Shown: piece after piece, positions 23,131 to 38,810 of the stretch
Layout of the letters: each line of letters starts with the position of its first letter
Numbering within the stretch: the stretch's first letter is position 1
From: a virus
Direction: 5' to 3' (one strand)
DNA: 38,810 nt
Virus record (IMG/VR): IMGVR_UViG_3300025131_010477
Coordinates: 1-38,810 of that record
Translations under genes and position numbers: made by a program
The notes under the pieces: model-generated
Databases searched by the model: none
What the model was told of the DNA's origin: nothing
What the model saw: only the letters and a program-made list of their open reading frames with translations

Positions 23131-23376
23131 ATGGCACGAGACAGAGTCAACATCGGCCGCGCGGTTCGTAGGCCCGTCGCGAACACGATCGACGTCGTCA
23201 ATGTCACCGCGCAGTTCGACGGCGACATGAACCTGACGAGCCTCGCGGTCTTCTTCACCTTGGAGGGTGACGAGACGGTTTACGAAGGCAGCGCGTTCAC
23301 GCCCGGCGTGCCGGTCGGCCAGCTCCGCCGCGAAGTCCGGCGCGTCGCGAAGGCCGCAGCCGAGGCGCTCGGATGA
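23131..23376 (+). CDS. Small hypothetical structural-region protein (81 aa)
   Basis: A beta-rich first half (DVVNVTAQFDGDMNLTSLAVFFTLEGDETVYEG) and a helical basic C-terminus. AGGAGAGG overlaps the previous stop. It overlaps the next gene by four bases. No family recognised. Confidence 0.55.
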   Translation: MARDRVNIGRAVRRPVANTIDVVNVTAQFDGDMNLTSLAVFFTLEGDETVYEGSAFTPGVPVGQLRREVRRVAKAAAEALG

Positions 23377-23711
23377 GCTACCTCGTACCGGCGCCGCACC
23401 AGGTGGTCATCCCGTCGCTGACGGCGTGGACCGGCGTCGCCGAGCGTCTCGTTGGCTCGGTCTACCTCCCCGTGCGCAAGATCCCGATCATCCGCGCGTA
23501 CTTGGGTGAGGAGACCGCGGCACACGACGCCTCGCTGCGGCTCCGTCGTGACACAGGTGGGGCTGAATTGACGACGCTGACCTCTGGCGCCCTCCCGGCC
23601 AACGTGCAGGTTGTCGACGTCACCGTCGCCAACGCCGACTGGTACCACCTGTATCTGCTCACCGATGACGCGGCTGGCGTCTGCATCTGCACGGGCGTGC
23701 GCTTCGAGTAG
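23373..23711 (+). CDS. Small beta protein, paralogue of the C-terminal domain at 26408
   Basis: 112 residues. Nearly its whole length matches the last 97 residues of the protein at 26408: shared blocks are LVGxVxLP, AxLGEETxxxDASLRxR, WYxLYLxxDxAxGxxICTGVxF. Here the module stands alone; there it follows a fibre-shaft motif. Probably a virion surface domain, perhaps carbohydrate binding, but no known family was recognised. Confidence 0.65.
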   Translation: MSYLVPAPHQVVIPSLTAWTGVAERLVGSVYLPVRKIPIIRAYLGEETAAHDASLRLRRDTGGAELTTLTSGALPANVQVVDVTVANADWYHLYLLTDDAAGVCICTGVRFE

Positions 23712-23720
23712 GAGAGATCG

Positions 23721-24722
23721 ATGCCTGATTACGAAAAGAGTTGGACCCTTTCTTGGGACGTCGACGTCACCGGCGCATCGGCTGTGCTCACCGGCGCAGG
23801 CTGGGCCATCGCGCTCAAAGACCTGCTGCTCGATACCGCCGAAGCCGATGGCGGCGAGTGGACGATCGAAGGCTGCTCCGACGGGTCTGCTGTGGATGCT
23901 ACCGATCGCTGGGGCAGCGACACGTCAAAGGTCGTCTGGGATTCGGCCGGCCAGCCGCACTCGTGGATCGAGCTGTCGAAGACGTACCGCGGCACGACCT
24001 GGTACCTCATCATCGACTGCGCCAACACCGACGGCGAGACGTTGACCGTGGTGTACAGCCACACGGCTCCGTCCACTGGCGGAACGACCACGAACCGTCC
24101 GACTACCGCGGGCGCGTCGGCGTACACGTACACCGACCAGTGCATCAGCCACGTCGGCGGGCAGACGATGTACTTCCACGGCTCTCGAAACGAGGACGGC
24201 GGCTTCCTCGTCTCGTCGGGCCGTACTGGACTCGACAAGCTCCCGCTCAACATGGTCTTCGCGACGTTGGAGACGACGCGTACGAACCTGGCCGACCCCT
24301 ACGCCGTCTGGTTCGGCTTGAAGTACAACGAGGCCGACACGTACGGTCCGTGGGAGCTGAACGACTCCAGCAACGGAATGGCCGACGACACGAACTTCGG
24401 GATGTTCGACGAGACGGGTGCGACCGACGCGGATGGCTTCGAGTCGTGTCCTGGCTACACGGCACATACCCACATCACGACCAACCAGTCTGCGTGCGCG
24501 CAGTTCCCGATCGGTGGGGACGCAGTTGACGGCTCGTGGCCGACACTCCCGGTCCACGTCTTCAATGGCGACGCTGGGCAATACAGCTTGCGTGGCCGAT
24601 GGGCCGATGTCTGGCAGACGAGCTTACAAAGTCAGCTCGGCGGTGCCCCGACGGGCGGTCCGTTCACTCACATCGTGACCGGATGGGTGGGCATCCCGAG
24701 CGATACGGAGCCGACGCACTAA
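23721..24722 (+). CDS. Large beta-rich virion surface protein, unknown family
   Basis: 333 residues, Thr/Ser/Asp/Gly/Trp-rich, almost no Lys. AGGAGAG precedes the ATG. A Pro/Thr linker near 118-128 (TNRPTTAGAS) divides an N-terminal beta domain (SWTLSWDVDVTGASAVLTG...) from a larger C-terminal domain with aromatic-rich loops. The composition is that of a fibre or adhesin exposed on the virion, and Ser/Thr-rich linkers are typical O-glycosylation targets. Function unassigned. Confidence 0.6.
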   Translation: MPDYEKSWTLSWDVDVTGASAVLTGAGWAIALKDLLLDTAEADGGEWTIEGCSDGSAVDATDRWGSDTSKVVWDSAGQPHSWIELSKTYRGTTWYLIIDCANTDGETLTVVYSHTAPSTGGTTTNRPTTAGASAYTYTDQCISHVGGQTMYFHGSRNEDGGFLVSSGRTGLDKLPLNMVFATLETTRTNLADPYAVWFGLKYNEADTYGPWELNDSSNGMADDTNFGMFDETGATDADGFESCPGYTAHTHITTNQSACAQFPIGGDAVDGSWPTLPVHVFNGDAGQYSLRGRWADVWQTSLQSQLGGAPTGGPFTHIVTGWVGIPSDTEPTH

Positions 24723-24985
24723 TGGACATGTACGACAACCAACTGTTCGCGAACGCGCCGCTTAACATGCGGCAGTCGTCGCCGAGCGTTCGCATGTTCA
24801 ACACAGATCCGTCAGGCGGTGGTGGAGCGACGACGACGTACCACCTGCGCGCGTGGGACAGTGGACTCGTGCAGTACGTGACGTGGACGAGCGCGGACAC
24901 GCCCGATCTCTCGCCAGCGTCCGGAGACACGACGCCGAACTACACCGGGACCCTCTCGGGCCACCACATCAGTTACACGACGTAG
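24722..24985 (+). CDS. Small hypothetical structural-region protein (87 aa)
   Basis: The ATG overlaps the previous stop (TAATG). Rich in Thr, Ser, Gly, Asn and Pro with aromatic residues (VQYVTWTSAD), suggesting a beta-structured virion protein. No family recognised. Confidence 0.5.
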   Translation: MDMYDNQLFANAPLNMRQSSPSVRMFNTDPSGGGGATTTYHLRAWDSGLVQYVTWTSADTPDLSPASGDTTPNYTGTLSGHHISYTT

Positions 24986-24994
24986 GAGTCCCCC

Positions 24995-26404
24995 TTGCGC
25001 TACGACATCGAGCACTTCTGGCAGGTTCCGGATGCGGACGACTATGCGCCGGCGATGGAGCGGGCGCAGCAGTGGATCCCACCGGACGGGCACATCGAGC
25101 TGGTCTTCGGGCCGAAGCTCTACCGCTTCAGCAAGAAGGTCGATCTCTACCGCGGCGTCAGCCTCATAGGACTGGAGTCGGTCGTCGGCATCAAGGGCGA
25201 CGCGACGCCGCAGGGCGGCAACGAGGCTGTCCCGACGCTGCACTTCGACAACAGCACCATCGGCTTCGAGATCCACTTCCCCGGCACGTACGCACCGGAA
25301 CCGGAAAGCCGCGGCACCGTCACGATGCGCAACCTGGTGCTCCACGGCTCAGGGCACCTGTCCGGGTTGGAGAACCACGGCATCCGCGTCCGAAACCGGC
25401 CCGTGCTCGACGGCATCACCGTCCGCCAGTTTGGCGGCGATGGCATCCATGCGTACTGCACGAGCCCCGTTTTGCCTGGAGGCGACGAGAACCCAGGCAA
25501 CTGCAACCTGATGAAGCTCAACAACGTCAGGTTGTACTTGAATGGTGGCCACGGTCTGTACCTGAACGGAGCGGACTCAAACGGCGGTGTGTTCATCGGG
25601 CTCGACGTCAACGCGAACGGGCAGGCGTTGCTCGAGGCCATCCAGATCTACGACTCCAGCTTCCTCGGAAACGTCTACATTGGCTTCCACATTGGCGGAA
25701 ATCAGTACGGCGGACGCGCAGTCGTCACGGACAACGCGAACGCTCGCTGCTTGTTGTTGGGCTGCTACGTCGAGGGCGTCAAAGGCCTGCACATGGTGCC
25801 CCCTTCGATGTCCGTCGGCGGCTTCTGTGGCCCCGAAGAGGGGGCCACTGCGCACATCGACGCGGACCTGAACGGGCTCGTGCGTGTGGAGCCCGGCGTG
25901 ACGTGCATGAACAGCGCCGGCGACAACGTCATCGAGACGCGTCTCGGCAGCGCAAAGATCGGCAACGTCGCTCTGGAGCTGCTCGTCGATCAATCGGCGA
26001 CGCAGCGCATCCACTACGCGAGAAAGAACCCCGGTTGGTGGGAGTTCATCGACAGCAATGCAGCCACGTTGATCGCCTTCGCGATCTCAACCAAATTCGC
26101 CGAAGAGGGCCGCGGTCAGATCTGGTTCCCGAACGGGCTCTACTTCGGAGGCATCAATAGCCCGCGAGGCAAGCAGACCACGGAGCTGCGCGGCGGCATT
26201 GAGGTCGTCGTCACCGAACTGGGCGGCGCAGCGCGAGCTGAAGGGCACGCCACTGCGCCTCCGCACGCTGGCGACTGGGCGCAGGGCGACAAGGTGTGGA
26301 ACTCCGAGCCTGCTGCCGGCGCTACGCTCGGCTGGATCTGCACGGTCTCCGGAACGCCGGGGACGTGGGCATCGATGGCTGCGATCGGGGACGAGGAGCC
26401 CTAG
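24995..26404 (+). CDS. Beta-helix tailspike-like protein
   Basis: 469 residues from TTG with TAGGAG six bases upstream. An N-terminal segment like the start of pectate-lyase-3-type tailspikes (DDYAPAMERAQQWIP, FGPKLYRFSKKVDLYRGVSLIGLES) leads into parallel beta-helix coils (about 85-310) with repeating HGIRVRN, DGITVRQFGGDGIHAY, LNNVRLYLNGGHGLYLNG and SFLGNVYIGFHIGG. The C-terminal 80 residues are a separate beta domain (GDKVWNSEPAAGATLGWICTVSGTPGTW). Such proteins bind or degrade host surface polysaccharide. I cannot assign catalytic residues. Confidence 0.7.
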   Translation: MRYDIEHFWQVPDADDYAPAMERAQQWIPPDGHIELVFGPKLYRFSKKVDLYRGVSLIGLESVVGIKGDATPQGGNEAVPTLHFDNSTIGFEIHFPGTYAPEPESRGTVTMRNLVLHGSGHLSGLENHGIRVRNRPVLDGITVRQFGGDGIHAYCTSPVLPGGDENPGNCNLMKLNNVRLYLNGGHGLYLNGADSNGGVFIGLDVNANGQALLEAIQIYDSSFLGNVYIGFHIGGNQYGGRAVVTDNANARCLLLGCYVEGVKGLHMVPPSMSVGGFCGPEEGATAHIDADLNGLVRVEPGVTCMNSAGDNVIETRLGSAKIGNVALELLVDQSATQRIHYARKNPGWWEFIDSNAATLIAFAISTKFAEEGRGQIWFPNGLYFGGINSPRGKQTTELRGGIEVVVTELGGAARAEGHATAPPHAGDWAQGDKVWNSEPAAGATLGWICTVSGTPGTWASMAAIGDEEP

Positions 26405-26407
26405 TCC

Positions 26408-26959
26408 GTGGGGCTCACCAAACCGAACGCGGGTTCTGGTGGGCTCGCGAAGCCTGAAGCGGGCGGCGGAGGCGGCGTGACCGATCACGGCGCCCTGACC
26501 GGGCTCGCCGACGACGACCATACTCAGTACGCACTCGCCGACGGGTCACGCGCGTTCACGGCGCCGGTCGGCGGGATCGCGCCAGTCGCGGGCGCCGACT
26601 TGGCGACGAAGACCTACGTGGACGGCGTGGTTGTCGCCGGGGCCATTCATGCGGTCCTGGCCATCACCGCCGTCACGGGGACGACGGAGACCTTGGTTGG
26701 CGCCGTGAAGCTCCCAGCCAACGCGAACACCTCGATCGCGGCCTGGCTTGGCGAAGAGACCGGCACGTACGATGCGAGCTTACGGATTCGGAAGGCGAGC
26801 GACGCGACGGTCCTTGCGACGCTGGCGGCGTCCACTGCAACGCCGGCCGAGGTCACGGCCGCTGGGGTCAACGTCCCGAGCGAGGCTTGGTACGAGCTGT
26901 ACTTGTACTCCGACAATGCGAGCGGCACGGCGATCTGTACCGGGGTGAACTTCGGGTAA
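26408..26959 (+). CDS. Fibre-shaft motif fused to the 23373-type beta module
   Basis: 183 residues from GTG. A Gly-rich start, then DHGALTGLADDDHTQYALADGSRAF (26-50), as in the 22364 protein, then ADLATKTYVDGV (63-74), a segment common before fibre C-termini. Residues 87-183 are a paralogue of the protein at 23373. It therefore joins two modules that occur separately elsewhere in the region. Likely a virion fibre or collar component. Confidence 0.65.
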   Translation: MGLTKPNAGSGGLAKPEAGGGGGVTDHGALTGLADDDHTQYALADGSRAFTAPVGGIAPVAGADLATKTYVDGVVVAGAIHAVLAITAVTGTTETLVGAVKLPANANTSIAAWLGEETGTYDASLRIRKASDATVLATLAASTATPAEVTAAGVNVPSEAWYELYLYSDNASGTAICTGVNFG

Positions 26960-27210
26960 TGCCGGAAGCCGCCATCAACGCCCTACAGTCGGTGTGGCCT
27001 CTGCTCGTCGCCGCCGTAGCGATCCTGCTCAGCGCCGGTGCCGCGATCGGGTGGTGGCTTGTTCATCACGGCACGGTTGGGCAGGAGGAGCGACTCCGTC
27101 GAGAACGCCGCGCCCGCATCCGTGAAGTCTTGGTCGCGTTCGACGTGTCGCCTGACCGCCGAGATGCCTGCGTGGACGCGCTCGAGCGGCTCATGGCATC
27201 CTGGGACTAG
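26959..27210 (+). CDS. Small single-pass membrane protein
   Basis: 83 residues; the ATG overlaps the previous stop. One hydrophobic helix (about 13-35, LLVAAVAILLSAGAAIGWWLV), followed by a charged helical domain rich in Arg (RLRRERRARIREVLVAF). The layout fits an N-out/C-in membrane protein; a lysis accessory is possible but no lysis enzyme is near. No family recognised. Confidence 0.55.
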   Translation: MPEAAINALQSVWPLLVAAVAILLSAGAAIGWWLVHHGTVGQEERLRRERRARIREVLVAFDVSPDRRDACVDALERLMASWD

Positions 27211-27551: not shown

Positions 27552-27752
27552 GTGTCCGGACGAAAATCCAAGCCGGTCGGCCGCCCTGCGGGCTCTGGCG
27601 AGTTCCCTGACCGTGTCGAAGTTCGCGTGCGCGCGGGCGACAAGCGCGAGCTGACCGAGCGCTTCGAGGAAGAGAATGCCGCGCGCTCGCCGCGCTACCG
27701 ATTCGCCTCCATGGCGTCTTGGATGCGCAGGAAGCTGGGGCTCCGGCCGTGA
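27552..27752 (+). CDS. Small basic protein, possibly ribbon-helix-helix
   Basis: 66 residues from GTG; no clear Shine-Dalgarno sequence. A basic Gly/Pro-rich start is followed by RVEVRVRAGDKRELTERFEEE, a strand-helix pattern, and a second helix with FASMASWMRRKLGL; the loop between the helices is longer than usual. This is compatible with an RHH repressor. Palindromes GTCCGGAC lie at 27519-27526 and 27554-27561. If real it may control the glycan cassette, whose first gene overlaps its stop. Confidence 0.45.
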   Translation: MSGRKSKPVGRPAGSGEFPDRVEVRVRAGDKRELTERFEEENAARSPRYRFASMASWMRRKLGLRP

Positions 27753-28957
27753 CTCGGCGACTGCTGCTGCACTCCGATTCGCTGTGCGCCGACACGGGGT
27801 TCGCGGGCGTCGTGCGCACGATCGTCTCGGAGCTTCGCGATTGGGAGATCGACCAGGTCGGCATCAATCACCCAGACGCGCTCGTCGACCACGACCACGC
27901 GCGCATTTACTCGACGCGCGGCCAGAAGGACCACGGTGGCCAGCTCGCGTGCAACCTGTACCTGCAGCGCGACTACGACCTCATGCTCATCGTGCAGGAC
28001 CTCCACGTCGGCGCGCAGTGGGCCCGCGGGCTCCGCAGCGCCCGCGTGCAGCGTGCTCGCCAGCGGTTGAAGAAGACCCCGATCGTGTTCCTGTTCCCGG
28101 TCGACGGACCCATGCTCGGCTTTACCGAGCTGGTAGACCTCGCCGATTGCGCCGTGACCTGCACGCGCTGGGGCCGGCAGATCGTCGGCGACGTCTCCAC
28201 CGCGCGGGTCCAGGTCGTCCCGCACGACGTGGACGTCGATGCGTTCCGGCCGCTGGGCGACGCAGAACGGGCCCGTCTCCGCCGTAGCGTGTTCAACGTG
28301 CGTCCGGACGTACTCACCGTGCTGTCCGTCGCGGTGAACACCATCCGCAAGGATCTGTTCCAAGCGCTGCAGGGCATCGCAGCGCTGAAGGCTCGGCGCG
28401 GTCCGGTCGTCAAGGTGCACTTCCACACGTCCGGTGTGCACCAGGGCATGAACCTGCAGCTGATGGCGTCGTCGCTCGGGCTGGTGCAGGGTCTCGACTA
28501 CCAGATCGCAGACCCGTCTCTGCTGGGCGCACCGCGCGAGATCATCAACGAGCTCTACAACGCGTCCGACGCCGTGCTGTTCACGTCGCGGCGTGAGGGC
28601 TGGGGCTTGCCTATGACGGAGGCGATGGCGGCCGGGACGGCTGTCGTCGCGCCGCGCTACGGCCCATTCGAGGAGTTGCTGGGCGACGACCGCGGCTTCC
28701 TGCACGAGCCGGCCGGCCTGATCTGGACGGACAAGGAGCACAGGGGTCCGTGCTGGTTGTCCGACCCAGAGGCCGTCGCCGATCAGCTCGAGCTTGTGCT
28801 GGAGTGGCGCGGCACCCCCGCGCACCAGCAGCTCCTCGATCGTGCCCGCGCGTACGTGGGCCACTTCGCGCCGACGGTGCTCGCGCCGCGCTGGCGCAAG
28901 CTGCTGTACGACGTCGCGGCCGGCCAGGTGCCCGCGGTCGAGGGAGCACTGCAGTGA
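27749..28957 (+). CDS. GT4-type glycosyltransferase
   Basis: 402 residues from a GTG overlapping the previous stop. GT-B fold: N-terminal acceptor domain (1-185) and C-terminal nucleotide-sugar domain starting at LTVLSVAVNTIRKDLFQAL. The retaining-GT EX7E motif is Glu283/Glu291 in SRREGWGLPMTEAMAAGT. The N-terminus HSDSLCADTGFAG resembles the Gly-rich loop of GT4 enzymes. No signal peptide or membrane helix, so it is cytoplasmic. First enzyme of a coupled cassette; donor and acceptor unknown. Confidence 0.85.
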   Translation: MTRRLLLHSDSLCADTGFAGVVRTIVSELRDWEIDQVGINHPDALVDHDHARIYSTRGQKDHGGQLACNLYLQRDYDLMLIVQDLHVGAQWARGLRSARVQRARQRLKKTPIVFLFPVDGPMLGFTELVDLADCAVTCTRWGRQIVGDVSTARVQVVPHDVDVDAFRPLGDAERARLRRSVFNVRPDVLTVLSVAVNTIRKDLFQALQGIAALKARRGPVVKVHFHTSGVHQGMNLQLMASSLGLVQGLDYQIADPSLLGAPREIINELYNASDAVLFTSRREGWGLPMTEAMAAGTAVVAPRYGPFEELLGDDRGFLHEPAGLIWTDKEHRGPCWLSDPEAVADQLELVLEWRGTPAHQQLLDRARAYVGHFAPTVLAPRWRKLLYDVAAGQVPAVEGALQ

Positions 28958-30129
28958 CCTACGACGTCCCGGCACTCGACGTCTCGGGCGTCCCGCCCGT
29001 GCGCTTCTCCGCCGACTTCGCCTCGCCCACGGGCTACGCGAACGACGCGCGGATGCTGGCCTACGCGCTCATCCAGGCCGGCGTGGACGTGACGCTCGAT
29101 GCCATCCCGATGGACCGAGGCTCTGCCGACTACGGACCGGTCGCCGAGGTACTCCGTCCGCACTTCGGGCGCGAGCTGGACACACCGATCCAGATCATGG
29201 ACACCGTGCCCAATTTCTGGCCGACGTACCGGAAGAAGAGCGCGTATGCGATCGCCCGGCTGGCCTGGGAGACCGACACGACGCCGGCGGACTGGACGCG
29301 ACTCGCCGAGCGCACGTGCATCGACGAGGTCTGGGCGCCCAGCTCGTTCAACACGAGCGTGCTGTCGGACGGCCTGTCGCTCCCGAGCTTCGTCGTCCCC
29401 ATGGCGCACGACCTCGACTTCATGGATCAGCACGGCGAGGGGTTGGACCTGCGTGAGCAGGGCATCGCCGACGACGTCTTCGTGTTCCTGTCCGTCGGCA
29501 CCTGGATCAAGCGGAAGAACTTCGAGGGACTGCTCGCGGCCTACTGCGCGGAGTTCGGACCGGACGAGCCGGTGCACCTGGTCCTCAAGATCAACAGCGG
29601 TCGTGTCGATGCGGCCGGCCGCGCGGCGGTCGAGGCCGAAGTCGCGGAGATCCTGATCAGCCTCGGCGCCGATCGCCGGCTGCCTCCGATCACGATCCTG
29701 CAGCAGCACCTACCGACCGCCGAGATGATCGGCCTGTACCGCCGGGCGCAGTGCGGCGTGTTCCCGACGCACGGCGAGGGCTGGGGACTGCCGATCAGTG
29801 AGATGATGGCCTGCGGCACGTCGTCAATCGTGACCGGCTGGGGCGGCGTGCTCGAGTTCTGCACCGAGGAGACCGCGCACCTGCTGCCGTACCAGCCGAC
29901 GCCTGTCCGCGGGATGCAGCCGATGCCGTGGTACGACGTCCGCCACAGCTGGGCCGAGCCCGACCTGACCGCGCTCCGCGCCCGCATGCGCGAGGTCGCA
30001 GAGAGTCGTGATGCTTGGCAGAAGGTTGGCTGGCAGGCCAAGCGCCATGTTCAGGAGCGGTTCGGTATGCGCGCTGTCGCGCAGCGCATGATCTACCGGC
30101 TGCGCGCGATCGCCGCGGAGCACCTCTAG
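28954..30129 (+). CDS. GT4-type glycosyltransferase
   Basis: 391 residues from a GTG within GTGA at the previous stop. N-terminal domain with SADFASPTGYANDARML (Gly loop) and IARLAWETDTTPADW. The C-terminal domain starts near VFVFLSVGTWIKRKNFEGLL and holds the EX7E motif in THGEGWGLPISEMMACGT. The arrangement resembles GT4 enzymes of polysaccharide clusters. Soluble. A paralogue in fold, not close in sequence, of its upstream neighbour. Confidence 0.85.
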   Translation: MTYDVPALDVSGVPPVRFSADFASPTGYANDARMLAYALIQAGVDVTLDAIPMDRGSADYGPVAEVLRPHFGRELDTPIQIMDTVPNFWPTYRKKSAYAIARLAWETDTTPADWTRLAERTCIDEVWAPSSFNTSVLSDGLSLPSFVVPMAHDLDFMDQHGEGLDLREQGIADDVFVFLSVGTWIKRKNFEGLLAAYCAEFGPDEPVHLVLKINSGRVDAAGRAAVEAEVAEILISLGADRRLPPITILQQHLPTAEMIGLYRRAQCGVFPTHGEGWGLPISEMMACGTSSIVTGWGGVLEFCTEETAHLLPYQPTPVRGMQPMPWYDVRHSWAEPDLTALRARMREVAESRDAWQKVGWQAKRHVQERFGMRAVAQRMIYRLRAIAAEHL

Positions 30130-30980
30130 TGCGCGTCGTACTCGCCACCATCGCGCTGAACGAGGCCGAGTTCATCGGTCGCCAGCTGGAGCAGCACCGG
30201 AACTGGCCTGGGCTGGTCGGGTGGGTCTGGGTCGAGGGCGCCGCGGAGCACTACGGCCGGCAGCACCCAAAGGCCGTGACCGACGATGGCCGCTCGGTCG
30301 ACGCGACGTCCCGGCTGCTGGCTGAGGCAGCACAGCGCGACCCCTGCATCCGCTACGTGGCGCACGGCTGGGCGCGCGGGAACGAGCGGGGCATGGGCGG
30401 CCAGAAGATCCAGCTCCGCAATGCGTACTGCAAGGTCGCTGACGAGCTCGACGCTGACGTCCTGATCGTCATCGACGCGGACGAGTTCTACTCGAAGGAT
30501 GACCAGGAGCGGATCTTGGACATCATGGCGACGCGTGGCACCGACTACGACGCGTTCCTCTTCCGCCAGCGACACCTGTGGCGGCCGCCGTCGATGCTCG
30601 GGGCCGACTCGACGCTGGAAGTCACCGGCGGCTACTGGGCCGTGCCGCACGTGCGCGTGTGGTGGTACGAGCGGGGCGCCCGGTACCAGAACCACAATCA
30701 CCTCGCCCTGCCTGGCCAGTGCTACAACCCGAAGCGCTTGTATCGACCGCAGCCCGGCGACCCCGAATGTCTCCACCTCGGCTTCGCCCGCGACCCCCGT
30801 CATCGGCTGCGCACGAACGCCTACTACGTCGCGCGCGGTGAGGGGCGCGAGCGGGGCTTCAACCGGCAGCACTACGTCGACTGTCGCGACGCCTGGGCGA
30901 CGTGGCTGCCCGACACGCAACTGCCGAACGGCGCCAAGGTCGCCGCGTTCGAGGCCGCGCTGCCCGAGGTGCTGCGATGA
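30129..30980 (+). CDS. GT2-type (GT-A) glycosyltransferase
   Basis: 283 residues; the GTG shares a base with the previous stop. MRVVLATIALNEAEFIGRQLE is the start of a GT-A glycosyltransferase. The metal-binding DxD is Asp116-Ala-Asp118 in VLIVIDADEFYS, and Gln92-Asn98 (QKIQLRNAY) precedes it. No membrane helix. The C-terminal region has His- and Tyr-rich acceptor-side sequence (RYQNHNHLALPGQCYNP). Similar to GTs annotated in phages and polysaccharide loci. Donor unknown. Confidence 0.8.
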   Translation: MRVVLATIALNEAEFIGRQLEQHRNWPGLVGWVWVEGAAEHYGRQHPKAVTDDGRSVDATSRLLAEAAQRDPCIRYVAHGWARGNERGMGGQKIQLRNAYCKVADELDADVLIVIDADEFYSKDDQERILDIMATRGTDYDAFLFRQRHLWRPPSMLGADSTLEVTGGYWAVPHVRVWWYERGARYQNHNHLALPGQCYNPKRLYRPQPGDPECLHLGFARDPRHRLRTNAYYVARGEGRERGFNRQHYVDCRDAWATWLPDTQLPNGAKVAAFEAALPEVLR

Positions 30981-32044
30981 CGAGCTACACGCGCATCGGG
31001 CTCGTCGGCTACTGCTGCGCCACAGGGCTCGGCTACGAGAACCGCCGCATGTGGGCCGGCCTACCCGACGTGCACTGGCTCATCTGGCCGCACGACCTGC
31101 TCGGCGTCGAGGACCAGGCCGCGCTGGAGCAGTCCTTCGCGGCTGACAACGGCATGCTCAATTACGACGTCGTGTACGCCGAGAGCTCGAACGCGCGGCT
31201 GCTCGCTGTCGACGCGTTCCTCGACAGCGTCGACGTGGTCGTCTGCGCCGAGCGGCCGTTCCCGGATGACCTGTTCGCGCGGGCGCGTGCCCGCGGCGTC
31301 CGCACTGTTCTACTCGTCAACCCGGAGTGGCGACTCGGTGAGTCGTGGTCCGAGGCGGACGTCGTCATCGCGCGCACGTCGGTCTGCCATCGCGTCGTGC
31401 AGCAGGTGACCGGCCGCCGCGACGTCCAGCTCATCCCCTGCCCGCTCGACATCGAGCAGCTGCCCTTCACGCACACGCTCCGAGCAGATTGGGGTCTGTA
31501 CTCGCATGGGTGGGGCGGCGTGCACGATCGCAAGGGCTGGCCCACGATCCGTGCGCTGCTGCGGGCCGTGCCGACCGCGCCGATCGCCGTGAGGTCGCAA
31601 CGGGAGCTGCCCGACTCGCCAGTGCCGATTCATCCCGCGGTGGCGACGCCGGCGGACCTGTATGACCCGAACGGTGAGGTCTCGGCGGACGTCGCGATTC
31701 AGCCGTCCCGGTTCGAGGGCGTTGGGCTCGCCGTGCTGGAGGCGATGGCCTGCGGCCTGCCCGTGCTCACCACTGACGCCGCGCCGATGAACGAGTACGT
31801 GCATGCGGCCTACAAGAATCTCGCGCATTATGCGCTGCTCGAGATCGAGCGCACCGAGCTCGTGCCCATGTGGGCGCCGTGGCCGTCGCATCTCGTGGAG
31901 CCGGCGACCGTGGCGCAGGCCATGTCCGAGCTGCAGGCGCACCCCGAGGTCGTCGCCGAGCTGTCGATGCGCGGCCGCGCCTACGTCGTGGCGCATCACG
32001 GGCGGCCTGCGTGGGACGCGCTGCGGGAGGCGATCGTCGGATGA
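30977..32044 (+). CDS. GT4-type glycosyltransferase
   Basis: 355 residues, ATGA overlap. GT-B fold with N-terminal GYCCATGLGYENRRMW loop. The C-terminal domain has an EX7E in PSRFEGVGLAVLEAMACGLPV. A segment GVHDRKGWPTIRALLRAV is the usual alpha/beta unit following the hinge. Cytoplasmic. Fourth enzyme in the cassette. Confidence 0.8.
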   Translation: MTSYTRIGLVGYCCATGLGYENRRMWAGLPDVHWLIWPHDLLGVEDQAALEQSFAADNGMLNYDVVYAESSNARLLAVDAFLDSVDVVVCAERPFPDDLFARARARGVRTVLLVNPEWRLGESWSEADVVIARTSVCHRVVQQVTGRRDVQLIPCPLDIEQLPFTHTLRADWGLYSHGWGGVHDRKGWPTIRALLRAVPTAPIAVRSQRELPDSPVPIHPAVATPADLYDPNGEVSADVAIQPSRFEGVGLAVLEAMACGLPVLTTDAAPMNEYVHAAYKNLAHYALLEIERTELVPMWAPWPSHLVEPATVAQAMSELQAHPEVVAELSMRGRAYVVAHHGRPAWDALREAIVG

Positions 32045-33054
32045 GGATTCACGTCGTCACGCACGAAGACATGGACGGGTTCCTGTGGGGCGTGCTCGAG
32101 GGCTGGCTCAACAGCGGCGCGTGCGCTGACCACGAGGTCCGCGTGAGCAGCGACCGCACGCTGCTTGGTCCAGCGTCGCCCGACTTCTGGGAGACGCTCC
32201 CCCGCACCGACGCGATCCTGTTCTGCGTGACCAGCGCGAAGTCCACGCACGCGCCGCGCGCCTTCGACACCATCGCCAAGCACGACCTGTGGAAGCACGT
32301 GGTGCACTCGGACTACGTCCACAACACCAAGCTCAAGTACCCGAAGCTCGCCGAGCGTTGCGGGCGCCTCCTCGTCGGCAAGCGCTTCAAGTACCTGCGC
32401 TGCTGCAAGGACTGGGACCACGCCGAGTGGCTCCCGCGCACCGGCATTCAGCAGCGCACGTTGCGGTACGCGCCGCCGTTGCCCTGGTTACAGTGGAAGG
32501 ACCTGCCGGTCGTCGGCGTCTATCACACATTCAAGGCGGCGCAGAAGCACCGGCTCCCGTGGTTGAAGGCTGCCGCTGAGACGTTGCAGGGCGGCGTGCT
32601 CGGCTCGGTCGCGACGCGGCCGTTGCTCGAGCAGCAACCTCTGTTGCAGCGGGTCTACGGCACGCGTCACAGCAGCGACTACTTGGAGCAGGCGTCGCGT
32701 GCGCGTATCGGCCTGTACCTCATGGGCGGTACGGCGCTCGGTCACCAGTTCTGGGAGTACGCCGCGCTCGGCTGCGCCATCGTCGCGCAGCACGCGAGTA
32801 CGCATCCGTTGACGGAAGAGGACACGCAGGAGTGGGAGCACTTCAGCGAGGCTCGCGGTGAGTCGCTGGTCGAGGGCGAGGACTTCGTCTACTTCAAGAC
32901 GGAGGACGAGCTGCGGTCGGTGCTCGCCGAGCTGCACCACGACCCGGAGCGCTGCGCGCTGATGGCGAAGCGTGTCCGGCGCAAGACGCAGCCGTTCTGC
33001 AGCATCGCTCGCAGCTTGCATGTGCTGCGGGCACTGCAGGGGGTGTCACGATGA
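32041..33054 (+). CDS. GT-B glycosyltransferase-like protein
   Basis: 337 residues, ATGA overlap. The C-terminal part (GTRHSSDYLEQASRARIGLYLMGGTALGHQFWEYAALGCAIVAQ) matches the donor-domain pattern of GT1/GT4-type enzymes but with only one clear Glu of the EX7E pair. The N-terminal half is less typical (ILFCVTSAKSTHAPRAFDTI). It may be a diverged glycosyltransferase. Family placement is less sure than for its neighbours. Confidence 0.65.
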   Translation: MRIHVVTHEDMDGFLWGVLEGWLNSGACADHEVRVSSDRTLLGPASPDFWETLPRTDAILFCVTSAKSTHAPRAFDTIAKHDLWKHVVHSDYVHNTKLKYPKLAERCGRLLVGKRFKYLRCCKDWDHAEWLPRTGIQQRTLRYAPPLPWLQWKDLPVVGVYHTFKAAQKHRLPWLKAAAETLQGGVLGSVATRPLLEQQPLLQRVYGTRHSSDYLEQASRARIGLYLMGGTALGHQFWEYAALGCAIVAQHASTHPLTEEDTQEWEHFSEARGESLVEGEDFVYFKTEDELRSVLAELHHDPERCALMAKRVRRKTQPFCSIARSLHVLRALQGVSR

Positions 33055-34232
33055 ATTGGCGTCGTGCAGAGATCGTAGACAGGAACACGATTCACTGGAG
33101 CGCGCCGACCAGCGTGTCGGTCCCCGCGCTGCGCACGCGGGAAGGTAACAGGACTATCCAGGTCGTGCCCGCGAAGGTCCGCAGCACGACAGACGACGGT
33201 CCGCCTGTCGTGCTCCTGCCGCTGTACGAACGCGTGACGCATTATCACGGCATGATCAGGAACCAACTGCTGCGTATCGCTGCAGAGTTGCGTGTGCGCC
33301 AGCGTACCTTCCGTGTGCTCATTCCCGGCTACGCGCGTTCAACGATTCCCGTGATGCCCACGCCGCGTGGGCCTGAGTTGCCGATGCTGCAGCATGTTGA
33401 GGCACTGACGGGGCACGCGCCGTTGTTCTTGGATGACCTGCCGGCCGGCACGACGTTCGGGCGCTTTGCCGTAGCTGCAGCACCCACGGCGGAGATGGAG
33501 TCTCGTGCACTCCTGGGTCCCTGCGCGCTCGAGGCGGCCGCACCTTTAATGGAGCTGCGCAAGCGCACGCGCGCGCATCTCGGACTACCACAGGGTCCTG
33601 CGTGGTCGCGGGACGTCCGCCCGGTTGCCGTCGTGCTCGACCGGGCTGATCGACGCTGTCCCGTGCCGGAAGATGCGGCGTGGCTCGACGCGACGCTTGC
33701 AGGCGCGGGGTTCGACGTTGAGCACATCGAGCCACTGGCTGTGGAGTTTGCTTTACGGATAGCGACCTTTGCTCGCGCGGCGCTATTTATCAGTGTGCAC
33801 GGCGCTGGGACAGCCAACCTCATGTGGCAGAACGCCGGCGCGGTCGCCATCGAGCTGACGACTTGGGAAGGGCGATCGGCGATCTACCGAAATGCGGCCG
33901 TGCTCGCAGGCGTGCACTTCTTCACGAGCGAGGCGGTGGAGCCTCCGCGGCGCGAGGACTGGCCGACCACGTATCGCGACCGGGCCAACCCCGCTGTCCA
34001 AAAAGCCGTGCGTGCTGGCGTGGATTCTGGCAAGCCCGTCGCTGAGTGGCCTGTGCGGAACGCGCGGCTGTGGATTAGTACCAGCTCGCCGCTACGGCTC
34101 GACCGCTCACGTCTGCGCCTGCAGATTGAAGAGGCTCGATCCCGGCTCGGGCTCCGAGACCTTCTAGGGCCGTGGGGCCGAAGCAGCCAGCCCGCAGACC
34201 GCTGGCTGACCGTCCCGCCGGGGGCGAAATGA
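33051..34232 (+). CDS. GT61-family glycosyltransferase
   Basis: 393 residues, ATGA overlap. The key match is LFISVHGAGTANLMWQNAGAVAIEL (about 245-269), the signature of GT61 (DUF563; EOGT and plant xylosyltransferase relatives). Upstream VVLLPLYERVTHYHGMIRNQLLRIAAEL resembles the family's conserved N-terminal region. Members transfer xylose, arabinose or GlcNAc, often to protein or polysaccharide. The C-terminal 90 residues are basic and less conserved. Soluble, cytoplasmic. GT61 in a phage is uncommon. Confidence 0.8.
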   Translation: MNWRRAEIVDRNTIHWSAPTSVSVPALRTREGNRTIQVVPAKVRSTTDDGPPVVLLPLYERVTHYHGMIRNQLLRIAAELRVRQRTFRVLIPGYARSTIPVMPTPRGPELPMLQHVEALTGHAPLFLDDLPAGTTFGRFAVAAAPTAEMESRALLGPCALEAAAPLMELRKRTRAHLGLPQGPAWSRDVRPVAVVLDRADRRCPVPEDAAWLDATLAGAGFDVEHIEPLAVEFALRIATFARAALFISVHGAGTANLMWQNAGAVAIELTTWEGRSAIYRNAAVLAGVHFFTSEAVEPPRREDWPTTYRDRANPAVQKAVRAGVDSGKPVAEWPVRNARLWISTSSPLRLDRSRLRLQIEEARSRLGLRDLLGPWGRSSQPADRWLTVPPGAK

Positions 34233-34816
34233 CGCCGCCTATCGACGCCGTGCCGTGGTTCGCGCAAGGTGCCGTGGAGTATCTCGATGCGATCCTCTCT
34301 GCGCACGAGCCCGCGCCGCGCGTACTCGAGTTCGGCGCTGGCGGTTCCAGCGTTTGGCTCGCATCACGCTGCGCACGTCTCATCTCCATCGAGAGCTCAG
34401 CCGCGTGGGCGGACAGCGTACGCGACGGCCTCAAGCTGCTCGGGGCCGACCATGCCACCGTGCTGTTAGTCGAAGCAGACGACCCCGCAGACTTCGACCC
34501 GGCCTACCGCGGCGTACGTGACCACTCGTACCGTGCCTATGTAACGGCAGGTCGGCAGGCCGTCGACGCGCAACTTGATGGACGGGTCGACCTGCTCCTC
34601 GTGGACGGGCGCGCGCGGGTTGCCTGCGTCCGTGATTGCGCTGCGCTAGTTCGACCTGGCGGGACGCTGCTCCTCGACAACGCGGATCGACGGCGCTACG
34701 CGCCTGCGATCTCGTTCCTAGCAAGTGCAGGCTGGCAACGGATGGCGCAGTTCACCGCGAGCTTTGGCCGCGCGCCGGTGACTGAATTTTGGGTGCGGCC
34801 GGAGGGTGCAAGATGA
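34229..34816 (+). CDS. SAM-dependent methyltransferase-like protein
   Basis: 195 residues, ATGA overlap. Class I Rossmann fold: motif I VLEFGAGGSSVWLA (about 32-45), the ISIES acidic strand end (about 51-55), a DLLLVDGRAR strand (about 124-133), and RPGGTLLLDNADR (about 144-156). The GAGGSS loop and DGR resemble Methyltransf_24-type enzymes that act on small molecules or sugars. Likely target is a sugar of the cassette product. Confidence 0.75.
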   Translation: MTPPIDAVPWFAQGAVEYLDAILSAHEPAPRVLEFGAGGSSVWLASRCARLISIESSAAWADSVRDGLKLLGADHATVLLVEADDPADFDPAYRGVRDHSYRAYVTAGRQAVDAQLDGRVDLLLVDGRARVACVRDCAALVRPGGTLLLDNADRRRYAPAISFLASAGWQRMAQFTASFGRAPVTEFWVRPEGAR

Positions 34817-35382
34817 CAACGCCGATGAACAAGAAGATCCAGGCCACCAAAGCAGCAATGGCTCATGTTTCGGGCTACGCAGACATCAACACGTTTGTCG
34901 AGACGGGGACGGCGTTCGCCACAACCACGGTAGCTGCGTTGGAGATCTTCACCGAGGTGCACTCCATCGATTTGTCGCCCGAGTTGCACAAGCGCGCGGT
35001 GGAGCAGCACGGCGACCGTGCCGGTTTGACCTTCCACTTCGGCGACAGCGCTGAGGTCTTGCCACGAGTGCTAGCGGGGATCGACCGACCTGTAGTGGTG
35101 CTCCTCGACGCGCACTACTGCCTGGGTTTCGGAGGGAAGGCCGCGAAGAAGACCTTCCCGTTGTGGGCCGAGCTGGACGTGTTCAAAGCGCGTAAGCACG
35201 CGGACCTCGTGCTCGTCGATGACATCCACACGTTCGGCCGTGACCGGCAGGACATCCGCGTGACCAACGGTGTTGAGTGGGAGGGCGTGACGCCGCAGGC
35301 GCTCGTCAAGCACATGGGCGATCGGCTCGTAGCGCACGCGCCGTTTCGCGACCAGTACGCGCTGTACCTCAGCGCGGAGTAG
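34813..35382 (+). CDS. SAM-dependent methyltransferase-like protein
   Basis: 189 residues, ATGA overlap. TFVETGTAFATTTVAALEIF forms motif I, VHSIDLS the acidic strand, FHFGDSAEVLP the following strand and VVVLLDAHYCLGF the motif IV region (LDAHY). This resembles class I methyltransferases found in surface-glycan loci. It ends eight bases from the convergent radical SAM gene; no terminator lies between. Confidence 0.7.
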   Translation: MTTPMNKKIQATKAAMAHVSGYADINTFVETGTAFATTTVAALEIFTEVHSIDLSPELHKRAVEQHGDRAGLTFHFGDSAEVLPRVLAGIDRPVVVLLDAHYCLGFGGKAAKKTFPLWAELDVFKARKHADLVLVDDIHTFGRDRQDIRVTNGVEWEGVTPQALVKHMGDRLVAHAPFRDQYALYLSAE

Positions 35383-35390
35383 ACCGCTTG

Positions 35391-36350
35391 CTAGTTGCAC
35401 CCGTCACAGATGGACAGCTTGCGCCGGCCGCCCTGCGCGCGCGTCGTCTGGTACAGCTCGCTGTTGACGATCTTCAGCAGACTGCCGACCTCCACGACGT
35501 TGCCGAGCTCCAACTCGTAGTTCATGTCGTGGCAGCAGATGGTGACGTTGCCGTGTGGGCTGATCGACGGGCGTCTGGCATGTCGGCAGCCGCCGCGATT
35601 GCTGACCAGTCGCTGCTTGCCGTTGACGTTCTTGGCGGTCACGCGCGCGCGCCAGATGCGGTTCGTCGGCAGCGCGGTCAGCGCCTCCTCATGCTGCTCC
35701 TCGGTCATCGCGCCGATCTTGTAGAGGCCCAGCTGCTTCGGGCGCCACTGCGGCAAGCCGTAGGCTGCGAGCTGCTTGCCCAGTGCATCGAGCTCGTGCT
35801 CGTTCCACGCGGTGACGATCGACGCTCCCGTGGTGAACAGCCCTGGTGTGCTGTTGCGTCCGCCCAGCTGCTCGTCGCGCCGTGTGACGATCGCGCCGAG
35901 CGCCTGCAGGTTTTGCTTCTGCTGGCTGAGGTTGATCCGGCCTGCGATCTTGAGCGCCGATTCCTTCTCCAGCGAGTCGACCTCGTACACGATGCGGAGC
36001 TGGTGGCCGTGCGACTTGAACATGTCGGCCAGTGCCTCGATCCGCTCCCAGTCGACGGACACGGCAAGTTTGCTTGCGATCTCCGCCGTCATGCCGCGAC
36101 TGGCGACGTGCTCCAGCAACTCGTAGATGTCGGGGTGCGCGAAGGACTCGCCGGCCTGGTAGACGATGGCGCGACCGAAACCTTCAGCCTGCATGATGTC
36201 GATGATCTGCTTGAACATCGGCGTGGGCATGACGGCGTTGGTTCCGGTTTGCCAACGCTGGTGGTGGCAATACACACAGCGATGCGGGCAGATGGAACAG
36301 ACATCGACCAGGCTGGTCTTCGGGCGCCAGGGGTACTGTTCGGTGGACAC
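35391..36350 (-). CDS. Radical SAM enzyme with SPASM-like C-terminus
   Basis: 319 residues, minus strand, GTG start. The N-terminus has the cluster motif Cys21-x3-Cys25-x2-Cys28 (CPHRCVYC), the SAM-binding [4Fe-4S] site. The C-terminus has SISPHGNVTICCHDMNYELELGNV and ends in a CDGC pair, typical of SPASM or twitch auxiliary-cluster domains. Such enzymes modify peptides, sugars or cofactors by radical chemistry (epimerisation, dehydrogenation, thioether formation). It is the only minus-strand gene within a plus-strand cassette, which suggests separate control or separate acquisition. Substrate unknown. Confidence 0.8.
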   Translation of the reverse strand: MSTEQYPWRPKTSLVDVCSICPHRCVYCHHQRWQTGTNAVMPTPMFKQIIDIMQAEGFGRAIVYQAGESFAHPDIYELLEHVASRGMTAEIASKLAVSVDWERIEALADMFKSHGHQLRIVYEVDSLEKESALKIAGRINLSQQKQNLQALGAIVTRRDEQLGGRNSTPGLFTTGASIVTAWNEHELDALGKQLAAYGLPQWRPKQLGLYKIGAMTEEQHEEALTALPTNRIWRARVTAKNVNGKQRLVSNRGGCRHARRPSISPHGNVTICCHDMNYELELGNVVEVGSLLKIVNSELYQTTRAQGGRRKLSICDGCN

Positions 36351-36379
36351 GCGGCCGACTGTAGCACGCAGGTGTTCGC

Positions 36380-36937
36380 ATGATCCGCTACGCCGAAAAG
36401 GTCGGGCGCGCTGTGTCTCTACGACGCTGCGTCCCCGAGCTGCTCACGGCCGGCGAGCGCTCCGTCCTGTACGTCGGCGCGCGGGCGTCGCGGACCGAGT
36501 TCGCGGCGGAGCTGGCCGCGGCCGGCGCGGTCATCGACGTGCTCGAGGTCTGGGAGCAGAACGTCAACGACCTGCGCGCTGCGGCGCCCCCGTGGCTGCG
36601 GCACGTGTTCCACCACGACGTCCGCAACGTCGACCTGCTCCCGCTACCGCACTACGACGTGGTCTTCTGGTGGCACGGTCCGGAGCACGTCACGCGACTC
36701 GAAGCGCAGCGCACGGCAATGAAGCTCAGGCGCATCGCCGACCTCGTGGTGCTCGGCTGTCCGTGGGGCGACTATCCACAGGGCGCGCTCGGCGGCAACC
36801 CGTTCGAAGTACACCGGTGGGCGCCCGAGCCTGAAGAGTTCGAGGCGCTCGGCTTCGACGTCGAAGTGCTGCCGCCGAAGGGGCGCGGCGGGAACATCCT
36901 GTCGTGGTGGCGGAACCCGAGGAGTATCCAGCCATGA
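36380..36937 (+). CDS. Methyltransferase-like protein (185 aa)
   Basis: Divergent from the radical SAM gene with only 29 bases between starts. VLYVGARASRTEFAAELAAAGAVIDVLEVWEQNV fits a class I methyltransferase motif I and II, and YDVVFWWHGPEHV fits motif IV. The usual GxGxG is degraded to GARAS, so activity is uncertain. The C-terminal GRGGNILSWWRN is a normal family ending. No strong ribosome site. Confidence 0.6.
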   Translation: MIRYAEKVGRAVSLRRCVPELLTAGERSVLYVGARASRTEFAAELAAAGAVIDVLEVWEQNVNDLRAAAPPWLRHVFHHDVRNVDLLPLPHYDVVFWWHGPEHVTRLEAQRTAMKLRRIADLVVLGCPWGDYPQGALGGNPFEVHRWAPEPEEFEALGFDVEVLPPKGRGGNILSWWRNPRSIQP

Positions 36938-37566
36938 GTTACGAACCGCTGACCTACTGGACACAACGCACACGCAAGCTGCTGGACACCGGCGACCCTG
37001 CGCTCGTGCATCGCGATCGGAGCCTCGACGTCGACGCCGCGACGCTCGGCTGGCTACGTGCCCAGCTCAATGAGCGCGCGACTCGACCGACGCTGCTCGA
37101 GGTCGGGTGCGGCTTCGGCCGCTGGGCCAAACTGCTACGACGCAGTTACTCACAGTACATCGGCGTCGACATCGTGCAGGCGCGCATCGATGCAGCATTG
37201 GCTGCGTACGACGACGTCGCCCTGGACTTCATGGTGGTGTCGGCCAGCGGGACCTGGGATGTTCAGGCGCCTGCTGGCATCATCCCCGTCGACGTCGTCA
37301 TGTCGATCACGGTGCTGCAGCACCTCGACTTCGATACGACTGTGCGTGTGCTGCAGTCGATGTCCCGGCACCTGAAGCTTGGTGGCACTGCACTGCTCGC
37401 GGAGTGGCGACTGTTCGATAAGCCGCAAGCAGAGTTGCAGCCGGCGCCAGAGCAGCACATGTTCCCGAAGTCGATCCAAGCGCTCCGCGTCGCTGTGCCG
37501 GAGTTCAGCTGGTCCGGTCGCCAGGGTCGCTTCGTGTTGGAGAAGAGGGAGGGCTCGCCCGCATGA
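36934..37566 (+). CDS. SAM-dependent methyltransferase
   Basis: 210 residues, ATGA overlap. Clear class I motifs: LLEVGCGFGRWAKLL (about 54-68), YIGVDIVQARI (about 75-85), VDVVMSITVLQHLD (about 118-131) and LKLGGTALLAEWRL (about 147-160). A Leu-Gln-His in the post-motif region is common in O-methyltransferases for small molecules. Probably methylates the cassette's sugar or lipid intermediate. Confidence 0.8.
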   Translation: MSYEPLTYWTQRTRKLLDTGDPALVHRDRSLDVDAATLGWLRAQLNERATRPTLLEVGCGFGRWAKLLRRSYSQYIGVDIVQARIDAALAAYDDVALDFMVVSASGTWDVQAPAGIIPVDVVMSITVLQHLDFDTTVRVLQSMSRHLKLGGTALLAEWRLFDKPQAELQPAPEQHMFPKSIQALRVAVPEFSWSGRQGRFVLEKREGSPA

Positions 37567-38585
37567 AGATCGTCAGCGTCTGCCGCACTTACCCGACGCA
37601 ACGACCTGGTGGGATGCCGCATGTCACGCAGGACCGCGCAAGAGCACTTGCGGCGGCCGGCCACGACGTCACGGTCGTCACGACGGGGCTGAAGAACGGC
37701 CAGTACGATACGGCCGGCCGGTACGACATGAACGACGAGGGCGTGCGCGTCGTGCACGCGGCCTGCCCTCCGCAGGCGTACACGCAGCTGTTCGCCGAGC
37801 GCTGCAAGTGGGAGTGCCGCGACGTCAAGCCAGACGTGTTGCACCTCGACAGCTTCGACCGGGAGCGGCCGTGGTGGGTGGGCATCGCGCCACGCACCGT
37901 GGTCACGATGCACGGCTTTGGTGTCGGCGCGATGCTTACGGCATGGAACCGATTTCTCGGACGCGCGTCGACCGCGCCCGCGCCGAGCTGGGCCGCGCTG
38001 CGCGATGAGGCTGAGGTGCTGCAGACGTTCGACCGCGTCCTAGCGATCTCGGAGCACGAGCAGTGGATGCTGTCGGACGTGTACAACCTGCAGGACCGCG
38101 TGCGTCTCGTACCGAATCCCATCGCAGATGCGTTCTTCGTCGAGCCGCGGCTGTGCCTGCCCACCTCGACTGCGCCGTTCGTGTGCATCGGGAACCCGGG
38201 CACGAGCGGCAACCGCGACTTCGGCCGCGTCCGCGACGCCGCGAAGGCGGCCGGCATCCCGCTCGAGATCGTTACTGGCGTGAGTCGTGACGCCATCCCC
38301 GAGATCCTGGACGAGAGTCGCGGGCTCGTGTTGCCGACGCTCTGGTCGCAGGGCTACGACCTCGCCGTCGCCGAGGCGCTCGCGCGCCGACGCCCCGTCA
38401 TCGTGTCGGGGACCGGCTCGTACTGGCATCTGCGCGCGCCGTACATCCGCATCGTCCCGCGCGCGTGCTCGCCTGACGTACTTGTTGAGGCGCTCCGAGA
38501 GCCGCTACCCGAGGTGCCGTCCAATGCGGCCTACACGCACCGCAGCGCGGTGCACGTCGAGCGCTGGGAGGCCGCCATTGCCTGA
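37563..38585 (+). CDS. GT4-type glycosyltransferase
   Basis: 340 residues, ATGA overlap. N-terminal MKIVSVCRTYPTQRPGGMPHV, the GT4 Gly-loop; hinge segment VLAISEHEQWML and VRLVPNPIADAFF; donor domain LPTLWSQGYDLAVAEALARRRPVIVSGTGSY, in which the second Glu of EX7E is present and the first is replaced. Soluble. Sixth glycosyltransferase of the cassette. Confidence 0.75.
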   Translation: MKIVSVCRTYPTQRPGGMPHVTQDRARALAAAGHDVTVVTTGLKNGQYDTAGRYDMNDEGVRVVHAACPPQAYTQLFAERCKWECRDVKPDVLHLDSFDRERPWWVGIAPRTVVTMHGFGVGAMLTAWNRFLGRASTAPAPSWAALRDEAEVLQTFDRVLAISEHEQWMLSDVYNLQDRVRLVPNPIADAFFVEPRLCLPTSTAPFVCIGNPGTSGNRDFGRVRDAAKAAGIPLEIVTGVSRDAIPEILDESRGLVLPTLWSQGYDLAVAEALARRRPVIVSGTGSYWHLRAPYIRIVPRACSPDVLVEALREPLPEVPSNAAYTHRSAVHVERWEAAIA

Positions 38586-38810
38586 CCGTGCCATTGTCGT
38601 CTTCGGCCACGACCGGCCTGCTCTGCTCCGGCGTGTGCTCGCGCAGGTGCCCGAGCTCGACGCCGCTAACGAGTTCGACCTGTGGTGCTTCATCGACGGG
38701 CCGCGGGACGACGGTGCTTCAGTGGCGCTCGTGCGTCAGTGCGAGGCCGTGGCGCGTCGAGCCGTGCCGGCAGGGCGCCTCGTCGTGCGCGGCAAGAATC
38801 TCGGTGTCGG
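38578..38810 (+). CDS. GT2-type glycosyltransferase, 5' part only
   Basis: 77 codons visible, open to the right edge. The TTG at 38578 overlaps the previous gene by eight bases and has GGGAGG (38566-38571) six bases upstream, an excellent ribosome site. The sequence AIVVFGHDRPALLRRVLAQVPEL, WCFIDGPRDDG and RLVVRGKNLGVG follows the start of GT2-type transferases (VxxxNRP...DGS...NxGVG). The DxD and the rest lie outside the window. Confidence 0.65.
   Translation, partial: MPDRAIVVFGHDRPALLRRVLAQVPELDAANEFDLWCFIDGPRDDGASVALVRQCEAVARRAVPAGRLVVRGKNLGV

Follow-up and report, generated by a model that had tools for sequence, protein, structure and literature searches.

A cassette of glycosyltransferase and tailoring genes among the virion genes of an SPO1-type phage: a candidate virion decoration locus

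The virus record IMGVR_UViG_3300025131_010477 was analysed over its whole length of 38,810 bases (the window), whose right end is a contig end. At 27749-38810 it carries a cassette of 13 open reading frames (ORFs): eight are glycosyltransferase (GT)-like, four have been called methyltransferase (MT)-like and one encodes a radical S-adenosylmethionine (SAM)/SPASM enzyme. Six of the glycosyltransferase-like ORFs exceed their Pfam cut-offs, the GT61-like ORF falls just below and one is clipped by the contig end. The original prediction, made from the letters of the window, named GT4, GT2 and GT61 types and counted seven such genes, one too few. The ORFs are:

27749-28957, plus strand: GT4a, GT4-type glycosyltransferase (PF00534, 50.9 versus a cut-off of 26.4 bits)
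28954-30129, plus strand: GT4b, GT4-type glycosyltransferase (PF00534, 35.0 bits)
30129-30980, plus strand: GT2a, family 2 glycosyltransferase (PF00535, 25.3 versus 23.3 bits)
30977-32044, plus strand: GT4c, GT4-type glycosyltransferase (PF00534, 43.6 bits)
32041-33054, plus strand: GT-e, Glyco_trans_1_2-type glycosyltransferase (PF13524, 27.0 versus 25 bits)
33051-34232, plus strand: GT61-like (PF04577, 25.8 versus 27 bits, E 1.4e-5, under the curated cut-off)
34229-34816, plus strand: MT1, class I methyltransferase-like (PF13578, 22.7 versus 26.3 bits, below cut-off)
34813-35382, plus strand: MT2, weakly methyltransferase-like (PF13578, 17.4 bits, E 0.0086, below cut-off)
35391-36350, minus strand: radical SAM/SPASM enzyme (PF04055, 39.0 versus 29.5 bits; PF13186, 38.5 versus 21.5 bits)
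36380-36937, plus strand: MT3, unassigned, counted as methyltransferase-like in the original prediction
36934-37566, plus strand: MT4, SAM-dependent methyltransferase (PF13489, 49.4 versus 27 bits)
37563-38585, plus strand: GT4d, GT4-type glycosyltransferase (PF13439, 64.5 versus 28.5 bits)
38578-38808, plus strand: GT2b, start of a putative GT-A-type protein clipped by the contig end (80% identical to L087:15483-16799 of the sister phage G002)

With the starts chosen, neighbouring ORFs overlap at 10 of the 12 junctions: seven by ATGA and one by GTGA four-base overlaps, one by 1 base and one by 8 bases. The other two junctions are gaps of 8 and 29 bases flanking the radical SAM gene, so the run of ATGA-type joins first described is interrupted on both sides of that gene.

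Two further records place the cassette. G001 (66039 bases) is the same phage, window positions 672-36540 being matched at 99.9-100%, and G002 (87892 bases) is a sister phage whose head protein is 97% identical. Beyond the last glycosyltransferase gene, G002 encodes a 149-residue protein (p149), phrog_772, phrog_1004, a tail sheath protein (phrog_279) and a baseplate protein (phrog_6). The cassette of G002 is flanked by virion genes on both sides, with head genes before it and p149, neck, sheath and baseplate genes after it. Since tail genes follow the last glycosyltransferase gene, the cassette lies within the virion gene block. It had been described as phage-encoded and adjoining virion genes, and G002 bears this out: followed past the right edge of the window, the cassette stops after the last glycosyltransferase gene. 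Host DNA flanking a prophage, the explanation that was set against it, is ruled out, as the tail genes come after the cassette in G002.

Four methyltransferase-like proteins had been predicted. By sequence profile MT4 is firm, and MT1 is probably a methyltransferase too, its G002 orthologue exceeding the PF13578 cut-off (27.3 versus 26.3 bits). MT2 is a weak candidate, and its alignment by hhalign against MT1 and MT4 gave no significance. The call for MT3 is unsupported: profile searches including its G002 orthologue gave no supporting family match (HEM4 only, below its cut-off), comparison by hhalign with the firmer methyltransferases fell short of significance and a single-sequence fold model was poor (predicted local distance difference test score, pLDDT, 34).

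The radical SAM enzyme was correctly recognized at the outset, its minus strand going unstated, and both its Pfam matches exceed their cut-offs. NCBIfam cut-offs were unreached (best 36 versus 250 bits). In G002 the enzyme is 86% identical and is encoded in the same place and on the same strand; matches in viral contigs were limited to the same phage and G002. Radical SAM genes near the head genes of G038 and G028 were considered as copies of this gene and not used as evidence: that of G038 aligns by its SPASM end alone (31% over 54 residues), and its neighbours match PIG-L and glycosyltransferase models below cut-offs only. Radical SAM/SPASM genes are found upstream of the head protein gene in two AT-richer relatives (L076:3296-4261 and L058:7251-8243), the one in L076 having distant similarity at most to that of the window.

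The clipped GT2b fragment (38578-38808) has no Pfam match. Its 438-residue G002 orthologue, modelled from a 4-sequence alignment, gave a mean pLDDT of 58 and a predicted template modelling (TM) score of 0.58, although, of the first 23 ten-residue blocks, 20 scored 66-92 and the other three 36-58. The best Foldseek match was N-acetylglucosaminyltransferase I (E 3e-7); its TM-scores are low (0.28/0.36), as the confident model covers just the first ~235 of the 438 residues. Solely through the predicted fold of this orthologue, GT2b models as a GT-A fold.

A crude Kyte-Doolittle scan revealed no strong membrane segment in the cassette ORFs. The highest 19-residue mean is 1.67 over the 12 complete ORFs and 0.71 in the clipped ORF; the customary threshold is 1.6. 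No complete PADLOC defence system was detected in the 10 of 13 ORFs scanned, and single matches were to pVip (2.6e-5, radical SAM enzyme) and mad2 (2.3e-9, MT4).

Genes related to the cassette are present in a minority of relatives. Of 123 loci encoding a related head protein, 80 were kept, and the records of 50 of these, many of them fragments, were searched. PF00534 was found in six of the 50 (five above cut-off), PF00535 in four (three above), SPASM in five (all above) and PF13578 in three (one above). As G001, the window's own phage, is among the six PF00534 records, there are fewer independent cases. Four distinct phages have GT4b immediately after GT4a: that of the window and G001, G002, G005 and G013. 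In the latter three, GT4a orthologues are 79, 43 and 42% identical, respectively, and the GT4b orthologues directly after them 81, 38 and 38%. The head proteins of G005 and G013 are ~53% identical to that of the window, and their cassettes occupy the same site, before p149 and the neck. Among other loci, L151 and L109 are 99.8% and 100% identical to G013 over the compared stretches, L108 has GT4a at a contig edge and G007 has a GT4 gene after the head genes, where its contig ends.

Downstream of the conserved pair, gene content differs. In G005 there follow a GT2b relative (35% identical to that of G002), two proteins without a Pfam match (by eye, one glycosyltransferase and one polysaccharide deacetylase) and a minus-strand methyltransferase (Methyltransf_31, 58.6 bits). 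G013 has a GT2b relative (31%) and an MT1 relative (29% identical). The GT2b relatives of G005 and G013 come after the pair, whereas GT2b itself closes the cassette in the window and G002. One opposite-strand gene was seen per cassette: the radical SAM gene in the window (35391-36350), the methyltransferase gene in G005 (L098:11447-12076) and L101:8430-9095 in G013, which by eye looks amidohydrolase-like. G013 is identical over 21128 compared bases to PBPC01000005.1 (L109), a contig deposited within a Gemmatimonadetes metagenome-assembled genome; this is a weak host hint for G013 only, or a binning error.

Between the end of the head gene and the first neck match there are ~20.7 kb in G002. 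In G005, G013, L012 and L023 the distances are about 10.4, 10.3, 9.2 and 6.8 kb, respectively, and in seven relatives with head-protein identities of 36-43% they are 0.6-3.2 kb; no neck match turned up in L019 or L103. The head/neck site is a variable region, holding glycan genes in one branch. At this site in L012 and L023, several ORFs look fibre-like by eye.

Comparison of the window with G002 reveals at least three differences: an APS-kinase gene, the GT61 catalytic part and the terminase intein. The additional G002 gene, between GT2a and GT4c (L087:8178-8939), encodes 253 residues with an adenosine 5'-phosphosulfate (APS) kinase domain (PF01583, 142.5 bits), a DUF2061-like stretch just below the Pfam cut-off and a hydropathy of 1.88. 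Relatives of this kinase are rare, occurring in 5 of 50697 phage records at E 1e-5, including one 691-kb Salmonella record. It is a hint of 3'-phosphoadenosine 5'-phosphosulfate (PAPS) supply and sulfation; a PF13469 sulfotransferase, sought as its partner, was found in none of eight records. G002 is without the GT61 catalytic part, and a 58-residue ORF (L087:10983-11161) resembles the C-terminal ~50 residues of GT61 (window 34068-34229). No further convincing copy of this segment was found among the collected relative loci.

The ratio of non-synonymous to synonymous substitution rates between the window and G002 was 0.12-0.32 in the 11 comparable cassette genes (all but GT61 and GT2b), with 0.12 for the radical SAM gene, 0.15 for MT3 and 0.32 for MT4. 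Values for virion genes were 0.08 (head protein), 0.14 (a 333-residue protein before the cassette) and 0.24 (portal). The 11 cassette genes are under purifying selection. Amino acid identity was 57% for MT1, 63% for MT4 and 71-86% for the other nine (MT3, 86%); therefore, some tailoring genes change faster.

On the left, the virion genes of the window are those for a terminase with an intein, a portal, a head protease and a phrog_752 major head protein, followed by a run of small genes leading to the cassette:

9482-12244, plus strand: large terminase subunit with in-frame LAGLIDADG intein (phrog_38, 6e-57; PF14890; PF14528)
13923-15710, plus strand: portal protein (PF04860, 5.9e-21; phrog_15361/phrog_12)
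20141-21592, plus strand: major head protein, SPO1 type (phrog_752, 3.2e-83)
21674-27210, plus strand: small genes between the head protein gene and the cassette, including 24995-26404, whose C-terminus matches a tail-fibre phrog

The phage is an SPO1-type myovirus, judging by the phrog_752 head protein of the window and a contractile sheath, which is present in G002 and G005 though absent from the window. The 20 best-listed phage records, mostly SPO1-group Bacillus phages, have head proteins 34-36% identical to its own, and megablast of window 14000-38810 against phage records gave zero matches. The intein stretch of the terminase has no counterpart in G002. Among the small genes, 23373-23711 and 26408-26959 have a similar C-terminal domain and read by eye as paralogous surface domains; 26408-26959, used as a query, also matches the place of the 23373-23711 counterpart in G002. 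Scans of the window gave no tRNA and no Rfam match, and its promoter and terminator counts did not exceed those of shuffled sequence.

From its gene content and position, the cassette probably serves to decorate the phage's own particle, by stepwise glycosylation and methylation of virion proteins in the cytosol with host sugar nucleotides. Soluble glycosyltransferases would assemble a short glycan in the host cytosol, one sugar at a time, with host nucleoside diphosphate sugars as donors. The original prediction saw no gene for sugar-nucleotide synthesis, in agreement with the absence of PF01370 (sugar-nucleotide epimerase) and PF00483 (nucleotidyltransferase) from all eight records examined, these being the only donor-synthesis families searched. 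The acceptor would be one or more virion surface proteins, with the glycan built directly on them; by their position, the products of 21674-27210 are candidates. Tailoring would fall to the SAM-dependent methyltransferases and perhaps also to the radical SAM enzyme, and the predicted enzymes would, as proposed at first, suffice for a short glycan carrying methyl groups. A common inner part may be made by GT4a and GT4b, perhaps together with GT2b, the remaining genes being exchangeable and giving a phage-specific outer part. We infer the substrate, the order of steps, the timing of expression and the role of the sugar coat, which may be shielding, adsorption or stability.

Alternatively, the cassette might remodel the host envelope (capsule, lipopolysaccharide or a teichoic-type glycan), blocking superinfection or changing the receptor in the manner of the Gtr clusters that temperate phages carry. 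In its favour are the GT4 and GT2 enzymes, types characteristic of envelope glycan synthesis, together with GT4b relatives of 22-35% identity that occur in ordinary bacterial genomes, in some cases in arrays of three GT4b-like genes (L110 and L122), and the additional G002 gene with its hydropathy and DUF2061-like stretch. However, a Gtr-type serotype conversion cluster is defined by a GtrA-type flippase and membrane-bound glycosyltransferases, for which there is no Pfam match in the cassette (the hydropathy check being crude). A flippase, lipid-carrier transferase, polymerase or ligase is not among the Pfam matches of the 13 ORFs either, strong membrane segments are lacking in the same crude scan and the cassette sits among virion genes in G002, G005 and G013. 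Hypermodification of phage DNA with sugars by the cassette enzymes is another explanation. It is defined by a phage gene for a modified base, of thymidylate-synthase type, and PF00303 is absent from G000, G001 and G002 and present in one of eight records overall (G028); the records may be incomplete, and this was the only base-modifying family searched. The location among head and tail genes also speaks against it, even though virus-encoded DNA-glycosylating glycosyltransferases are known (Pyle 2024, as cited in the part of PMC12619734 available). Because of the points counted against each, both are less likely: envelope remodelling is rather doubtful and DNA modification very improbable.

The cassette could also be a loose set of cargo genes without relation to one another, sitting at a permissive spot, with separate purposes and no single pathway. 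The head-neck interval, which ranges from ~0.6 to 20.7 kb among the measured relatives, is as expected for such a spot. GT61 and MT1, reduced or diverged in G002, have a third-position GC content of 0.73 and 0.71, compared with 0.89-0.91 in the five preceding genes, and the radical SAM gene runs in the opposite direction. In contrast, starts and stops overlap at 10 of 12 junctions, the enzymes share a single theme and GT4a and GT4b stay adjacent even in distant relatives, which leaves unrelated cargo improbable.

Several observations weigh against decoration of the virion. The case is made from gene content and position, with acceptors that are no more than candidates, and the cassette is absent in most of the 50 SPO1-type relatives searched (many of them fragments). 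Neither PF00534 nor PF00535 is matched in the records of L012 and L023, two relatives with head-protein identities of 50 and 54%. MT2 and MT3 might turn out not to be methyltransferases, and the radical SAM gene, being on the opposite strand, may be a separate insert. In the crude hydropathy scan MT4 (1.67), GT4c (1.61) and GT61 (1.61) touch the threshold. Furthermore, the corresponding enzymes of phage Corndog were detected in infected cells and not in virions, according to the text available of PMC4351075.

If virion decoration is correct, the locus may tentatively be regarded as a diversifying one, with a kept core of GT4a and GT4b (and GT2b), a fixed site between head and tail genes and swappable tailoring enzymes. 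With similar reserve, the tailoring set might comprise methyl transfer, the radical SAM enzyme, GT61, the deacetylase-like protein of G005 (by eye) and PAPS supply in G002. Each phage would then have its own sugar coat, comparable to the products of bacterial O-antigen loci. To our knowledge, few examples of phage virion glycosylation are known, each with few genes (four in Corndog). Decoration by the present cassette would imply that elaborate and variable sugar coats are within the reach of phages, with consequences for adsorption, antibody recognition and the diversification of phage surfaces.

The gene set was originally thought to look new, which applies to part of it. Searches of phage records with tblastn covered the radical SAM enzyme, GT61, MT4, the G002 GT2b, GT4a and GT4b. 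The first four gave zero matches, GT4a matched three records and GT4b 41. In viral contigs, GT61 matched only the same phage. The search for the set in other phages, suggested at the outset, recovered the GT4a-GT4b pair in G002, G005 and G013, and the full set with radical SAM enzyme and GT61 was not found in annotated phage records. No phage cassette with this gene set was found in the literature covered, most subscription papers lying outside it. However, clusters of glycosyltransferase and methyltransferase genes in Corndog, Mel-JY01 and TJE1 precede this one.

Corndog (Cluster O) encodes, in gp35-gp38, an O-methyltransferase, two glycosyltransferases and a putative N-acetylglucosaminyltransferase, for which capsid modification was proposed (PMC4351075, available in part). 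Compared by that description, glycosyltransferase and methyltransferase genes lie inside the virion block in both phages, the right bound of the present cassette being taken from G002, G005 and G013. Corndog, which has a long flexible tail, differs in having four such genes, placed between those for portal and protease, and the text available names no radical SAM enzyme, GT61 or APS kinase for it. In the accessible parts of the sources, glycans are stated to occur on mycobacteriophage capsid and tail-tube proteins (PMC12619734, citing Freeman 2023), and at least two glycoproteins and two glycosyltransferase genes are reported for XacN1 (PMC5852040).

Orf9-orf14 of Tetrasphaera phage TJE1 include a GT4a relative (28%) and a methyltransferase beside terminase and head genes; unlike the present cassette, the stretch examined has one annotated glycosyltransferase together with a nucleotide-sugar epimerase and a nucleotidyl transferase. 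Microcystis phage Mel-JY01 has a run of glycosyltransferase and methyltransferase genes with a GT4b relative (26%), but in the stretch examined it is beside replication rather than virion genes. Streptomyces phage Blueeyedbeauty and Microbacterium phage Magritte have two and one annotated glycosyltransferases, respectively, in or near their structural genes, but no linked methyltransferase or radical SAM enzyme is annotated in the stretches examined. As virion modification, the cassette is a larger variant of what has already been proposed for a few phages, with unusual tailoring genes.

The best mechanistic analogue is chlorovirus PBCV-1 (A064R, A111/114R), in which, as described in the available parts of PMC5408694 and PMC7826918, soluble virus-encoded glycosyltransferases act in the cytoplasm on the capsid protein, and a conserved core carries virus-specific outer sugars, with one protein combining glycosyltransferase and methyltransferase. 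PBCV-1 differs as a eukaryotic algal virus with an N-glycan, and the analogy is one of how the systems may work, with no claim of homology.

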